Origin: a virus
Virus record (IMG/VR): IMGVR_UViG_3300020160_000363
Coordinates: 1 to 31,905 of that record
Strand: one strand, 5' to 3'
DNA: 31,905 nucleotides
Below are positions 4,379-30,917 of the stretch, piece by piece. Position 1 is the first letter of the stretch. The number at the start of each line of letters is the position of its first letter. The translations under genes were made by a program, and so were the position numbers. Under the pieces are notes generated by a model. It had not been told where the DNA came from and made no database searches. It saw only the letters and a program-made list of their open reading frames with translations.

Positions 4379-4385
4379 TATTTAT
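4379..4385 (-). promoter_or_regulatory. Late promoter between divergent genes
   Basis: The minus strand reads CATAAATACTG. Predicted initiation is near 4373, giving a leader of about 27 nt to the ATG at 4346 or 12 nt to the GTG at 4361. The element overlaps the start codon of the plus-strand gene (ATG 4384-4386), so polymerase bound here would sit on that gene's translation start. Confidence 0.5.
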
Positions 4386-4758
4386 GGTAAAACTTACGGA
4401 AGAAATCAGAGAAAACTTCCCTTTTATATCGGTTGTACACTACGGCGGTATTGAATATGTTGGTGTAGTTATTAATCAAGATCAATACGTAACTAGTATC
4501 TATAACTACGAAGAGCTACGTACCGAACTGGATCGCAAAGTCTTTTTAGAGCTAGGTGAAGTATGGTGGTGGGAATCAAATCGTACTATTCCAATTAGCA
4601 TATTTCTAAAGAGCGAAATGGAAGCATTTCGATACAGTATTATGACTATGAATACTAAGGATGTTACTGTAGTATTTGGTCCAACTGTTAATCTGCATAA
4701 CATGAGTATCAAACGTGTAAAACGTAAAATGATACAGCTTGTACGCCCTAAGCGTTAA
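4384..4758 (+). CDS. Conserved-looking protein of unknown function, 124 residues
   Basis: This is one of only two plus-strand genes in the window. It begins MVKLTEEIRENFPF and contains HYGGIEYVGVVINQ (about 19-32), a Trp-rich GEVWWWESNR (about 58-67) and a basic C-terminus (SIKRVKRKMIQLVRPKR). The mixture of beta strands and a basic tail would suit a small nucleic-acid or ribosome-associated protein, but that is inference. It is near T4 RegA in length (122) but does not resemble it in sequence. A GAAGG sequence lies 13 bases before the ATG. Its stop codon overlaps that of the convergent gene at 4755 within the four bases TTAA. Codon usage looks like the rest of the window. Confidence 0.75.
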   Translation: MVKLTEEIRENFPFISVVHYGGIEYVGVVINQDQYVTSIYNYEELRTELDRKVFLELGEVWWWESNRTIPISIFLKSEMEAFRYSIMTMNTKDVTVVFGPTVNLHNMSIKRVKRKMIQLVRPKR

Positions 4759-5333
4759 TTATACCCGTAACTAACACCTTCGCAAATTAAATTCATCTGC
4801 ACTACTATTGCCATTGCGTAGGCTACGGCATGCGCTTTCTTAAAATAGTAGTCGTCATTCTCGGGCTTCGTCCACACTTCCTTCATAATCGTCGTCCAGT
4901 CCTGACCAATCAGGTGCCTCTTGGCCGGGCGGATCATAGCGAGGACCGCACTTAATTGTTCCACGGAAGTAGGGCAAGTCTTCCTCAGTACCGTCCCATG
5001 CCCGTTCAAATGAAATAACAGATTCGCAAAGTCGTCTTGTAAAAGTAAATCCCATAGCGGTTCAGTCTCCATAAGTTGCGTCAAGTGATCTTCACCTCGC
5101 ACACCTTCATAAACACCCACGTTTAGAAAGTCTATTTTAAAATACCCTCTATCTTCTGCTGTCTTATATTCGATAGTTGATAAGTTGTTACGCTCATCTT
5201 TAGGAATACTAGTAACGTATATACCAGTATTGTGAGGCTTCACTTGTCCGTTATCTATCCTACTAGCCGTAGTATGGTCAAATAATTCAAGGGCTCTAGT
5301 TCTATCACTAAAGTCAATGTCAATATCAGGCAT
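4755..5333 (-). CDS. Miniature DNA polymerase III alpha (DnaE/PolC)-like palm-fingers protein
   Basis: The 192 residues carry C-family polymerase landmarks in the right order. PDIDIDF (2-8) matches the DnaE PDFDVDF motif holding two catalytic aspartates. HNTGIYVTSIP (34-44) matches the HAGGVVIAP region. YFKIDFL (64-70) matches KFDFLGL with the third catalytic Asp (here Asp68). A segment from about 93 has the pattern LLxxD...FxL...G. PTSVEQLSAVLAMIRP (121-136) matches the fingers P-x-x-x-E-x-x-x-A-x-x-A-x-x-RP element, and FKKAHAVAYA (164-173) matches FNKSHSAAYA. The PHP, GRGS-loop, thumb, HhH, OB and tau-binding parts of full DnaE (over 1,000 residues) are absent. Family homology is inferred from motifs; activity is unknown. 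It may be an inactive relative, an accessory factor or a partner of another polypeptide. It is the last gene of its operon and overlaps the previous gene by 8 bases. Confidence 0.72.
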   Translation of the reverse strand: MPDIDIDFSDRTRALELFDHTTASRIDNGQVKPHNTGIYVTSIPKDERNNLSTIEYKTAEDRGYFKIDFLNVGVYEGVRGEDHLTQLMETEPLWDLLLQDDFANLLFHLNGHGTVLRKTCPTSVEQLSAVLAMIRPAKRHLIGQDWTTIMKEVWTKPENDDYYFKKAHAVAYAMAIVVQMNLICEGVSYGYN

Positions 5334-5520
5334 CGTTACCGTCCTTGTCCCATGTAGCTATTTTCTTCCACTGACTTAATCCGTCTGTTTCATATGGAGT
5401 ATATACTTCTCCAGTTTCTTTATCTACTAATATCCATTTACCAGGACACTTTGTTTTAATTGTTAGTGTCTTAGTTTTTTTTAATTCCTGTGCGACTGTT
5501 CCGTCTAGGAGCTTTCTCAT
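5326..5520 (-). CDS. Small protein of unknown function, 64 residues
   Basis: A short basic N-terminal half (QELKKTKTLTIKTKCPG) is followed by KWILVDKETGEVYTPYE and a terminal WKKIATWDKDGND. The central part reads like a single beta-hairpin domain of the kind seen in many small phage proteins (K-W-x-L-V-D-x-x-T-G-E-V-Y). It overlaps the upstream zinc-finger gene by 4 bases (ATGA-type) and the downstream DnaE-like gene by 8 bases, so the three are probably translated together. No function can be assigned. Confidence 0.75.
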   Translation of the reverse strand: MRKLLDGTVAQELKKTKTLTIKTKCPGKWILVDKETGEVYTPYETDGLSQWKKIATWDKDGNDA

Positions 5521-6254
5521 AATGATCCCTCATCTATTACCTGCTTAACTAACGTCAAGTCTGCTGGATAGGTCCTAAAACGTTTGGCCCAAAAGTCAGG
5601 ATTCATTACTTCAAAAATAATATTTAACTGTTCATCATTAAATTTGCTTAACATACTGCGTCCGCTTTCACTGTTCAATACTAGCCAAGGACTAATTTTA
5701 CCATCCTTAATATCATATACTGAACGATTCAGACTAACGTATTTAAAATAATGATTCCATTGGCTATTATTGTTATCTGCCCAATCCATCATAGTACTGA
5801 TGCTACGTTGTAGTGCTACTTCAGCAGGTTCTTTCTTAATTAGGTCTAATACATATTGATAATACAATTCTTCCCTGCACCAATGGTCAAGTTTAACTCC
5901 GCTAGTAACTACAAAATCTATATATCTATCTAGGTATAAGGGATTAACATTGTGTAGGAAACTGCCAAACTTTATAAATGCATTATAGTATTGACTCTTG
6001 GCAAATTCCTCATAGGTTTTTACATTTTTTACTTTTTGACTTAGTTGAAAAAATCTAATGTAGGTTTGATATCCTAACTGAACGTGCTTCTCAGATTTAG
6101 CCATATGCCTACGTTTTTGCTCGCACATATGCACAGCCAATGTAGATTCCTTAACATAGGCACTGTTACAATATTGGCATACATAGGGTTTGTCTACTGC
6201 GCTCAACTTGAATTTTATTCCTTTATGTTGTTTTTCAAATACATCTAAATTCAT
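5517..6254 (-). CDS. Zinc-finger-containing protein of unknown function, 245 residues
   Basis: Near the N-terminus is a C2H2-like finger: Cys26-x2-Cys29, then His42 and His50 (or Cys44), in the context YVCQYCNSAYVKESTLAVHM. The rest is helical with many aromatic residues (for example YEEFAKSQYYNAFIKFGSF and LYLDRYIDFV) and resembles no enzyme family I recognise. It is embedded in an overlapping operon: 4 bases with the 155-residue gene upstream and 4 bases with the 64-residue gene downstream. Inference: a DNA- or protein-binding factor acting with its operon partners, possibly in replication or late transcription. Similar ORFs seem usual in marine T4-like phages, from memory, not checked. Confidence 0.75.
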   Translation of the reverse strand: MNLDVFEKQHKGIKFKLSAVDKPYVCQYCNSAYVKESTLAVHMCEQKRRHMAKSEKHVQLGYQTYIRFFQLSQKVKNVKTYEEFAKSQYYNAFIKFGSFLHNVNPLYLDRYIDFVVTSGVKLDHWCREELYYQYVLDLIKKEPAEVALQRSISTMMDWADNNNSQWNHYFKYVSLNRSVYDIKDGKISPWLVLNSESGRSMLSKFNDEQLNIIFEVMNPDFWAKRFRTYPADLTLVKQVIDEGSL

Positions 6255-7663: not shown

Positions 7664-8293
7664 TTATTGTTGTTCTCTTGGAACTAGTATAGCATCAAAT
7701 GCCATCACAGTCCTAGTGCCAGTTCCCTTCCACGGATAGACAGTATGGGGTAAATGACTTGGGAATAATATAACAGTTCCTTCTTTAGGAGTATATTTCC
7801 ACGTGTCATTCATTATAAACTTACTAACATCTTTAGTATGTGGTAATCTAAATAAAATCTGACTATCACTAGGTTTGCTTCCAGGTGCTAGATCCGGCGT
7901 TCTAATATAAATGTTTCCACTGAGATGGCCGCCTGGGTGGCTATGCATTTCTTGATAGTCGCCTTCATATTGCCTAATAGTCCATATGCTAGTAACTACC
8001 GGACGGCACAGTGCTAGTTCTTCTGCTCCGCTTTGTGCTGTTACTAGTTCTATGTATCCTTGACAAATACTTTCAATCCATGCAGTTAACCAAGTAACAT
8101 CTAGACCCAACGCATTAGGGTATACTTGTATTTGCTGGCCTCCACGAATGCTAATCAACGGATTATCTCCATCGTTTAACTCAGTACGTGAGTGTAATGC
8201 TTCCGACAAATTAAATATTTGACTGAACTGAAATGCCGGAACATCGTCAATGGCAAACACCATTGGTTGAAAGTAAGCTACTTTTAATGTCAT
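7664..8293 (-). CDS. Putative 2-oxoglutarate/Fe(II)-dependent oxygenase
   Basis: The protein has 209 residues. The iron-binding pattern of the phage 2OG-Fe(II) oxygenase family (PF13759-like) is visible: EMHSHPGGHLSGNIYI (115-130) supplies His117/His119, PSHLPHTVYPW (178-188) supplies the distal His183, and Arg194 (TGTRTVMAFD) is placed to bind 2-oxoglutarate. The double-stranded beta-helix strands between them include SQILFRLPH and EGTVILFPS. The substrate is unknown; members of this group in marine T4-like phages are usually unassigned. It starts 8 bases after UvsW ends and has AAGGAAA directly ahead of its ATG. Confidence 0.82.
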   Translation of the reverse strand: MTLKVAYFQPMVFAIDDVPAFQFSQIFNLSEALHSRTELNDGDNPLISIRGGQQIQVYPNALGLDVTWLTAWIESICQGYIELVTAQSGAEELALCRPVVTSIWTIRQYEGDYQEMHSHPGGHLSGNIYIRTPDLAPGSKPSDSQILFRLPHTKDVSKFIMNDTWKYTPKEGTVILFPSHLPHTVYPWKGTGTRTVMAFDAILVPREQQ

Positions 8294-28214: not shown

Positions 28215-30917
28215 TTACCCTTTCAACTGTTTAGTTAGTTCCTCAACTTGTCGTTTAAGGTCTTTGACAGCGGCTACTAAGTTAGCAATAATTCCAGATG
28301 AACTGATTGCTAATGTTCCAGCATCTGTGGTTGTGACTGATTCTGGCATTACTGATTGTACATCTTGTGCCAATAATCCTAGATCTTTTTTACCACTTGA
28401 AATCCAATCAAAACTAACAGGACGTAGTGCATCTAATGTTTCCCAATAGTTGGTTAACGTACCTATGTTTGTTTTCAACGTTGCATCTGAACTGTAATAA
28501 AAAGCGGCTGCTGTGACAGTATTGTGCGTCACATCGTTTCCTGTACCAACGTTTTGATTCACAGTATAGTTACCAACGTTACTTAATCCAACTTCACTTG
28601 CTGTGTATGATGGTTTAGTAGCGGCTTTTGCCCAAGCATATACATCACTCGCCGGTAGTGTAGTTGGTATCGTTTGATCACCAGTATTTGTTCCAGAAGA
28701 TGTTCCGGAGAAGTTTGACGCTGTAAGAGTTCCGCACACAAATGCCTCATACGCAGTGCCGGGATTATTTACAATAGCGATTCTACCACTGGATTCCATT
28801 ACAATACTTGAAGCAACTAAACCACTCCAATGGAACGCTAGTCTAGGTGCGTAAGCAATAGCACCACCTTGAGAACCGCCTAGTCCTGCTTCACGAACTT
28901 GAATAGCAGAGCCATAAGAGGTGCCAGAATTACTCGAAGCTATATAACTACCACCTGCGCCGTAATGGTTAGTTGCAGTGCCTGCTGTTGAAGCTGAACT
29001 TACTGCTTTGTTTGCATCAGCAGTATTATCAACACTGCCTAGCCCTACATGTGCTTTTGTAACACCACTAACTGTACCAGTAAATGTAGGACTACTAAAC
29101 ATAGTGGCTTTTGATTCATTAGTTACATTACCAAGGCCAACCATTGTGGCGGTTACGCCAGATATTGAACCAGTTAATGTCCACGCCCCAGTTAATGTAC
29201 CAGCTGTTGTACTATCACCTGTTGTTATACTAGTTGCTTTTATTTTACCTTGTGTTGTATCAAATGTATCACCGTTCCAAAATAATCCGTAACTAGTGGA
29301 ACCACCTGCTTTATTGGCATATAAACTAAGTTGCGAACCACGATTACTTGCGGTTATAGCTTCGGTAGCCATCCACTCCATCCAACCTAAAGTAGTGAAT
29401 CCGCCTGTGCCGCCACTACCTATATGGCCTTGAGCACTTATATTAAGAACGTTATAATTATTTCCTGTTTGTGTTGGGGCATCAAAAGTTCCGCCGGAAC
29501 TTTTAAATTGTATTCCAGCTGGCCATCCACCTTCACTAGTAAGTGTTATTCCTCCAGCACCTGCAGTCTGCTTGATTGCCGGATTAGTAAACATTGTGGC
29601 TTTTGATTCATTGGTTACATTACCAAGGCCTACATGAGTGGCAGTTACACCACTAACTGTTCCGGTAAATGTCGGACTTGCAAACATTGTGGCTTTTGAT
29701 TCGTTTGTAACATTACCCAATCCCACATGAGTAGCAGTTACTCCACTTACAGTACCAGTGAATGTTGGACTAGCAAACATTGTTGCCTTACTTTCATTAG
29801 TTACATTTCCAAGTCCTACATGAGTAGCTGTAACACCTGCTACTGTGCCAGTAAATGTTGGACTTGCAAACATAGTGGCTTTTGACTCGTTAGTTACATT
29901 ACCAAGACCCACATGAGTGGCAGTTACACCTGCTACGGTACCAGTAAATGTAGGGCTTGCAAACATTGTGGCTTTAGATTCATTAGTTACATTACCAAGA
30001 CCTACATGAGTGGCAGTTATACCGGTCGGTGTTCCTGTGAACGCTGGATTTGCTAAGGGTGCTTTTAATCCCAACGCTGTTGATATTGTTGTACTAAAGT
30101 TAGCATCACTGCCCAATGCATCTGCTAGTTCTTTTAGAGTGTCTAATGCTGGTCCAGCACCGTTTACTAGATTACTTACTTCGGTTCTAACAAACTGCGT
30201 AGTAGCAACTTGAGTAGTATTAGTACCTGCTGTTGCTGTGGGTGCTAACGGAACTTCTGTGAATGTAGGGCTAGTGAACATAGTAGCCTTGCTTTCATTT
30301 GTCACATTACCTAAGCCAACCATTGCGGCTGTAACACCTGCTACTGTTCCGGTAAATGTTGGTGATGCAAACATAGTGGCTTTTGACTCGTTAGTTACAT
30401 TACCTAATCCCACATGAGTAGCAGTCACTCCTGCCACGGTGCCAGTAAATGTGGGACTACTAAACATAGTAGCTTTTGATTCATTAGTAACACTGCCAAG
30501 ACCTACCATTGTGGCAGTTACACCACTTACTGTTCCGGTAAATGTTGGGCTTGAGAACATTGTAGCTTTTGATTCATTTGTTACGCTACCTAATCCAACT
30601 TTGCTTGCGGCCAGGCTTGTTATCCATATGGGGTCAGCATATGATCCTGTAGTGTAAACACCATTAGTTACTGTACCTGCATTTCCTGTAATACTAGTTA
30701 CAGTAGGTACGCTAATAACACCGTTGACATCTACATTGATGCCGGTTCCTATTTTGACTATACCTTTAACTGTTTGAGATGCTGTGGGGCTGATAACATC
30801 AGCAATTGATTCTAATGTAGTTCTTTCACTGGTAGGGCCAGTTGGATCAATGACATACATTATAGTACTACCTGCTACTGAGGCAGCTAACGGTAGTTCT
30901 GTGATTTTTACCGTCAT
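28215..30917 (-). CDS. Tail fibre protein with 31-residue repeats and S74-type C-terminal chaperone
   Basis: The 900 residues begin MTVKITELPLAASVAGSTIM. The N-terminal two thirds are built of a 31-residue repeat (VGLG(N/S)VTNESKATMF then SPTFTGTV) in tandem blocks. A Gly/Ser-rich middle precedes the C-terminal autochaperone: SDATLK (810-815) with the putative self-cleavage Ser810 and Lys815, then LDALRPVSFDW, LGLLAQDVQSVMPE and a terminal coiled coil (VAAVKDLKRQVEELTKQLK). This is the pattern of the endosialidase/peptidase S74 intramolecular chaperone, which trimerises the fibre and is cut off. The N-terminus would attach to the virion. Confidence 0.85.
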   Translation of the reverse strand: MTVKITELPLAASVAGSTIMYVIDPTGPTSERTTLESIADVISPTASQTVKGIVKIGTGINVDVNGVISVPTVTSITGNAGTVTNGVYTTGSYADPIWITSLAASKVGLGSVTNESKATMFSSPTFTGTVSGVTATMVGLGSVTNESKATMFSSPTFTGTVAGVTATHVGLGNVTNESKATMFASPTFTGTVAGVTAAMVGLGNVTNESKATMFTSPTFTEVPLAPTATAGTNTTQVATTQFVRTEVSNLVNGAGPALDTLKELADALGSDANFSTTISTALGLKAPLANPAFTGTPTGITATHVGLGNVTNESKATMFASPTFTGTVAGVTATHVGLGNVTNESKATMFASPTFTGTVAGVTATHVGLGNVTNESKATMFASPTFTGTVSGVTATHVGLGNVTNESKATMFASPTFTGTVSGVTATHVGLGNVTNESKATMFTNPAIKQTAGAGGITLTSEGGWPAGIQFKSSGGTFDAPTQTGNNYNVLNISAQGHIGSGGTGGFTTLGWMEWMATEAITASNRGSQLSLYANKAGGSTSYGLFWNGDTFDTTQGKIKATSITTGDSTTAGTLTGAWTLTGSISGVTATMVGLGNVTNESKATMFSSPTFTGTVSGVTKAHVGLGSVDNTADANKAVSSASTAGTATNHYGAGGSYIASSNSGTSYGSAIQVREAGLGGSQGGAIAYAPRLAFHWSGLVASSIVMESSGRIAIVNNPGTAYEAFVCGTLTASNFSGTSSGTNTGDQTIPTTLPASDVYAWAKAATKPSYTASEVGLSNVGNYTVNQNVGTGNDVTHNTVTAAAFYYSSDATLKTNIGTLTNYWETLDALRPVSFDWISSGKKDLGLLAQDVQSVMPESVTTTDAGTLAISSSGIIANLVAAVKDLKRQVEELTKQLKG
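29589..30053. repeat. Five tandem 93-nt repeats in the fibre gene
   Basis: The anchor AAACAT recurs at 29589, 29682, 29775, 29868 and 29961, exactly 93 nt (31 codons) apart. Each unit encodes the VGLG(N/S)VTNESKATMF-type module. Third-base differences show that the copies have drifted while the protein repeat is kept. Confidence 0.9.
30276..30612. repeat. Four further 93-nt repeats in the fibre gene
   Basis: (A/G)AACAT anchors at 30276, 30369, 30462 and 30555 keep the 93-nt spacing. This block is separated from the first by a non-repeat segment of about 220 bp. An isolated unit is near 29097. Confidence 0.85.

Follow-up and report, generated by a model that had tools for sequence, protein, structure and literature searches.

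What function could be served in a phage by a 192-residue protein that carries the palm and fingers motifs of the bacterial DNA polymerase III alpha subunit (DnaE, a C-family polymerase), when T4-like phages normally replicate their genomes with a polymerase of the B family (PolB)? Such a protein is encoded within a 31,905-nt stretch of viral DNA, positions 1 to 31,905 of the IMG/VR record IMGVR_UViG_3300020160_000363, referred to hereafter as the window. The original prediction, made from the sequence of the window, proposed 3 options for the protein: a polymerase fragment with a partner, a decoy of the host replicase, or a domain reused for another task.

A conserved phage protein with C-family palm and fingers motifs

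The open reading frame (ORF), which we call part 2, has an ATG start and the N-terminus MPDIDIDF, and overlaps the ORF upstream by 8 nt (Table 1). It matches phrog_11778 ("DNA polymerase") with an E-value of 5.7e-66, residues 3–185 aligning with positions 8–193 of 197. Single-sequence searches against Pfam and PDB returned weak matches, which may be why many records label part 2 homologues as "hypothetical" or "putative membrane protein". Full-length matches were found in 90 phage records, nearly all of them jumbo phages of the RaK2, GAP32, 121Q, PA5oct, Atu_ph07 and SCTP-2 kind, and at least 552 IMG/VR loci contain part 2. Scanning 84,980 genomes of prokaryotes yielded just 12 matches, all on metagenome-assembled contigs assigned to scattered taxa, so that the family is essentially phage-borne, the 12 "cellular" matches being most likely misbinned phage DNA. 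One apparent short homologue, a match of the part 2 consensus to a Methylorubrum plasmid, proved to be an ordinary full-length DnaE.

Given that large parts of DnaE are missing, the gene could be thought to descend from a full-length polymerase and to be in decay. However, it is intact in hundreds of phages, shows a dN/dS of approximately 0.06 and 0.09 in comparisons with 2 near relatives (contigs L003 and L005, respectively), and retains invariant catalytic residues and a conserved neighbourhood. This conservation refutes gene decay, to which we assign next to no probability.

All 5 motifs named in the original prediction are present in the order described there. Across 48 sequences, D3, D5, D7, H34, G37, K66, D68, R135, P136 and K138 are invariant, as are W146, W154, F164–K166, H168, Y172 and N181; this set includes the 4 aspartates (D3, D5, D7 and D68) whose conservation had been suggested as a check. 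The Asp, K-x-D, RP and FKKxH elements are retained even in the most divergent members seen, those of Slickus01 and contig L241. In an hhalign comparison, residues 33–138 of the 48-member part 2 profile aligned with residues 510–642 of Escherichia coli DnaE (E = 6e-8), pairing H34 with H511, K66 with K553, D68 with D555 and R135 with R639. By motif, D3 and D5 are equivalent to D401 and D403 of E. coli DnaE, and H168 of FKKAH to H760, the steric gate of DnaE (PMC8485763). The AlphaFold2 model of part 2 has a pLDDT of 90.8, and its PDB matches obtained with Foldseek at a probability above 0.1 are all bacterial C-family polymerases (best match, E = 5.4e-4, probability 1.0), with modest TM-scores of 0.35–0.48 by query length. 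A tRNA hydroxylase (8fhc), matched by the part 2 profile in PDB (E = 0.0074), was rejected, being devoid of the catalytic motifs and not found by fold comparison. Collectively, profile, structure prediction and conservation back the C-family palm and fingers assignment: part 2 is a real, strongly conserved protein that matches DnaE both by profile and by its AlphaFold2 model.

Table 1. Part 2, its motifs and its conserved neighbours in the window.
Feature	Position	Strand	Remarks
Convergent gene, phrog_11637	4384..4758	+	Overlaps the part 2 stop by 4 nt; 82/86 loci
Part 2, split C-family polymerase core (putative)	4755..5333	-	Palm strands and fingers remnant; phrog_11778
F164-H168 (FKKAH)	4830..4844	-	DnaE FNKSH with H760; F164, K165, K166 and H168 invariant
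R135-K138 (RPAK)	4920..4931	-	DnaE R639-P640; R135, P136 and K138 invariant
K66-I67-D68	5130..5138	-	DnaE K553-x-D555, third catalytic Asp; K66 and D68 invariant
H34-G37 (HNTG)	5223..5234	-	DnaE H511 region, preceded by the thumb in DnaE; H34 and G37 invariant
D3-I4-D5-I6-D7 of PDIDIDF	5313..5327	-	D3 and D5 equal DnaE D401 and D403; D3, D5 and D7 invariant
Zinc-finger-like neighbour, phrog_11058	5517..6254	-	85/86 loci; zf-C2H2 match weak, below cut-off

The reduction relative to DnaE is extensive. The spacing between PDIDIDF and HNTG amounts to ~25 residues, compared with ~105 in E. coli DnaE, showing that the thumb is absent. Part 2 also lacks the YQEQ and RRAMG motifs of the fingers, with RP and FKKxH present and invariant, and it contains neither the PHP and C-terminal domains nor anything past the FxKxH helix. 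Thus, the PHP, thumb and C-terminal domains are gone, as had been proposed; the GRGS loop is likewise gone from part 2 but not from the system, in which it is encoded by a separate gene.

A second gene encodes the GRGS half-palm

Searches with PF07733 showed that each of 6 complete jumbo phages has a second, distant ORF of ~170 residues, which we call part 1 (PHROG 11127, phrog_11127). Part 1 ORFs match positions 18–98 of PF07733, corresponding to the GRGS half-palm, and end there; the part 2 match starts at position 98. Positions 83–168 of the part 1 profile align with DnaE residues 287–393 (E = 9e-9), the last residue falling on N393, so that the split lies between N393, where part 1 ends, and P400, where part 2 begins. 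The AlphaFold2 model of part 1 has a pLDDT of 94.1, and C-family polymerases are its only credible Foldseek matches. Active-site residues of part 1 are invariant or nearly so within its family, and the PHP domain is absent from part 1, as it is from part 2.

The position of the split is highly uniform: all 83 IMG/VR part 1 ORFs read terminate 33–39 residues past the beginning of GRGS (exactly 33 residues in 73 of them), none is fused to part 2, and no intein was found on either side of the split. The arrangement is akin to the Synechocystis-type split DnaE known from cyanobacteria in that 2 distant genes are involved. However, the cyanobacterial halves are near-full-length, divided within the fingers and equipped with a split intein, whereas the phage pair is divided within the palm and has no intein. 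The cyanobacterial precedent nonetheless raises the possibility that the phage halves are spliced post-translationally by a split intein into one covalent mini-DnaE. With at most 39 residues following the GRGS start in part 1, and only a short leader preceding the first Asp in part 2, neither side offers space for an intein, and this highly improbable alternative was rejected.

Searches with PF07733 and phrog_405 detected both parts in all 6 complete jumbo phages, and, among the matches listed (79 of the 90 part 2 records and 82 of the 94 part 1 records), at least 69 of the 79 part 2 phage records also carry part 1. The 10 exceptions include duplicate entries of genomes in which part 1 was demonstrated (e.g., NC_019401 and NC_019526). 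Part 1 was not found in the 31.9-kb window, which is itself a genome fragment, and it is present in 3 large contigs (L013, L041 and L079) among the 12 window-related contigs searched, most of which are fragments. Part 2, in turn, occurs in 8 of 15 large part 1 contigs. The two largest part 1 contigs without part 2 (543 and 359 kb) are also missing phrog_11058, and we assume for this reason that the part 2 region is probably not covered in them, which makes these 2 contigs uninformative; more generally, large contigs with one part alone may be incomplete. According to the map distances in the records as printed, the 2 genes are separated by 11 kb in Slickus01, ~34 kb in RaK2 and GAP32, 43 kb in PA5oct, 116 kb in SCTP-2, 182 kb in Atu_ph07 and 224 kb in Phosso. 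The latter genome also has a weak phrog_405 match at 170115–170195 (E = 0.01). With a GRGS half-palm gene that ends at the split and co-occurs with part 2, a polymerase fragment with a partner is by far the best supported of the 3 options originally considered.

Genomic context and coexisting polymerases

Part 2 is flanked by genes for UvsW, UvsY and UvsX and for the primase and DnaB helicase. The phrog_11058 gene lies closely upstream of part 2, the most divergent phages included, and its product is a possible candidate for a functional partner of the split polymerase. The tail-to-tail order of phrog_11637 and part 2 is also found in 6 annotated phages and in Slickus01. Part 1 has the clamp loader and, likewise, a GroES-like gene in its vicinity, including in one relative of the window.

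Several other genes were noted in the course of this survey. The window contains a 64-aa ORF (5326–5520; 22 of 86 loci) matching only the C-terminal 53 of the 559 positions of phrog_4098 (E = 1e-13), and a tail-fibre-like protein of 900 aa (28215–30917) with approximately 10 stretches matching phrog_3030. A 2OG-Fe(II) oxygenase gene (7664–8293) is found in just 36 of the 86 related loci and has thus probably been inserted into the replication region, either as a mobile gene or within particular clades. Close to part 1 of PA5oct lies a gene for a protein annotated as "polyubiquitin-like" (L119:4809–5069).

A gp43-like PolB is encoded by all 6 complete jumbo phages searched, in line with the expectation for T4-like phages, and neither a PolA polymerase domain nor a PHP domain (PF02811) was found in the 6 genomes. 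Slickus01 (141 kb) combines both C-family halves with a polymerase divided over 2 adjacent genes; this main DNA polymerase (L228:2558–5196) consists of 567-aa and 311-aa products, both matching phrog_262.

A further alternative is that part 2 has no catalytic activity and instead plays a structural or regulatory role, or serves as a decoy by binding the Pol III of the host or the accessory subunits of that enzyme. The protein is small and most of DnaE is missing, and many T4-like phages are generally known to shut off host functions. Nevertheless, the catalytic Asp, Lys and His residues are invariant across very divergent phages, and the PHP domain and C-terminal tail, the regions contacting host subunits, are absent, with no PHP gene found in the 6 complete genomes. 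We consider a non-catalytic role improbable, and the host-replicase decoy put forward in the original prediction is disfavoured by the same evidence.

Discussion

Our analysis suggests, with a probability of roughly 0.6, that part 2 constitutes the second half of an extremely reduced DnaE-type core encoded by 2 genes; it would assemble with part 1 and, together with it, act as an accessory enzyme beside PolB. In this putative complex, part 1 would contribute the beginning of the palm together with the triphosphate-binding GRGS element. Part 2 would contribute the strand bearing D-x-D, the strand bearing K-x-D, which holds the third Asp, and what is left of the fingers, including the steric-gate His. 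The two chains would join non-covalently to form one active nucleotidyl-transfer centre. Such assembly appears most likely because the nucleotidyltransferase site is incomplete on either chain and complete on both together. C-family enzymes combine the triphosphate-binding GRGS and the metal-binding Asp residues in one site; given that the 2 sets reside on separate chains here, each being invariant or nearly so within its family, it is simplest to suppose that the chains come together and that the site is in use. The accessory role would probably be played at the phage replication fork or in recombination and repair, for instance, by filling short gaps, extending primers or synthesizing DNA at lesions. 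Because the thumb has been lost, the grip on DNA would have to come from other proteins, perhaps the zinc-finger-like neighbour or other components of the replisome. The absence of the thumb and of YQEQ/RRAMG, as well as the separation of the 2 genes, which are not adjacent, count against the split-enzyme interpretation. To a degree, so do the lack of part 1 in the window, a genome fragment, and the several large, possibly incomplete contigs in which one part occurs without its counterpart.

The thumb and the YQEQ/RRAMG fingers of C-family enzymes are needed for the binding of DNA and dNTP, and, with the thumb and central fingers absent, the sequence cannot tell primer extension from other nucleotidyl transfer. 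Hence, a domain reused for another task, as the original prediction phrased it, stays a candidate: the 2 chains could have given up templated DNA polymerization and, as a nucleotidyltransferase, transfer nucleotides to some other target, for example, a protein, the end of a DNA or RNA, or a nucleotide used in signalling. It is consistent with this that the palm and a fingers remnant are all that remains and that a full PolB replicase is already present, and repurposing has a precedent in a diverged phage PolA argued in 2024 to be an RNA polymerase (PMC11348598). However, part 2 invariantly retains the elements that DnaE uses for dNTP selection (the steric-gate His, the RP motif and the FxKxH helix), and both genes are located among replication genes, making a non-polymerase function rather unlikely in our opinion. 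An accessory polymerase that uses dNTPs is the reading favoured by the steric-gate His and the RP motif, along with the location of both genes near replisome genes. A more specific version of the split-core proposal, namely, a heterodimeric C-family polymerase of ~360 residues, devoid of thumb and PHP domain, with GRGS and the Asp triad acting in trans, serving throughout a large jumbo phage clade as a second DNA polymerase beside PolB, is tentative, and we rate its chances at somewhat below even. To our knowledge, a pair of this size would be the smallest C-family polymerase.

The proposed core shares with the DnaE proteins of E. coli, Thermus aquaticus (2hpi and 4iqj) and Mycobacterium tuberculosis (7pu7) the palm order GRGS, PDIDIDF, HxxG, KxDFL, RP and FxKxH, as well as the profile and fold matches obtained for both chains. 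Unlike DnaE, a single chain of ~1,160 residues, it is made of 2 chains (~170 and 192 aa) divided between DnaE residues 393 and 400, and lacks the PHP domain, thumb, YQEQ/RRAMG fingers and C-terminal domains. Phage-encoded C-family sites are also found in the full-length polymerases of phrog_405, e.g., in Pseudomonas phage nickie and in Streptomyces and Mycobacterium phages. These polymerases are contiguous (1,130 aa in the case of nickie dnaE), whereas the jumbo phages have 2 short genes together with PolB. DnaE palm fragment matches were detected in 1,304 phage records, and in 1,270 of these a single stretch covers at least 80% of the fragment. Further phage C-family polymerases that are short or split may exist, judging from phrog_13169 (463 aa, with a GRGS match near the C-terminus), phrog_12219 (823 aa) and phrog_11165 (782 aa). 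Distribution of a phage polymerase over 2 genes is likewise known for PolB, which is divided in this way in phage MIJ3 (PMC6892783) and in Slickus01; however, these polymerases belong to the B family, the Slickus01 genes are adjacent, and neither is related to the C-family pieces.

The individual pieces have not escaped attention. Databases already annotate each of them as "DNA polymerase", and in Phosso both are annotated as "DnaE-like DNA polymerase III alpha". The GRGS piece of phage CBB (CBB_328, 172 aa) was described as a Pol III alpha in truncated form, present alongside gp43 (PMC5259590), and that of Atu_ph07 (gp316) was listed as Pol III alpha (PMC6102473). Where the RaK2 paper deals with DNA polymerase, it names PolB alone (PMC3622015), and the sections found in the 2024 survey of phage polymerases mention no short or split PolC of this kind (PMC11348598). 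We found no paper in the open-licence literature that links the 2 genes or describes the pair as a split enzyme, although the novelty of the pairing is not certain. Separate annotation of the halves, with the uninformative labels often given to part 2, hides the system.

C-family replicases are, as a rule, big proteins built from multiple domains. The results raise the questions of why many giant phages that encode PolB keep a second, reduced bacterial-type polymerase core under strong selection and why the split point is identical in every genome examined. If the proposed assembly is real, this small pair would show the minimal needs of a C-family active site and would provide a tractable model for its study.
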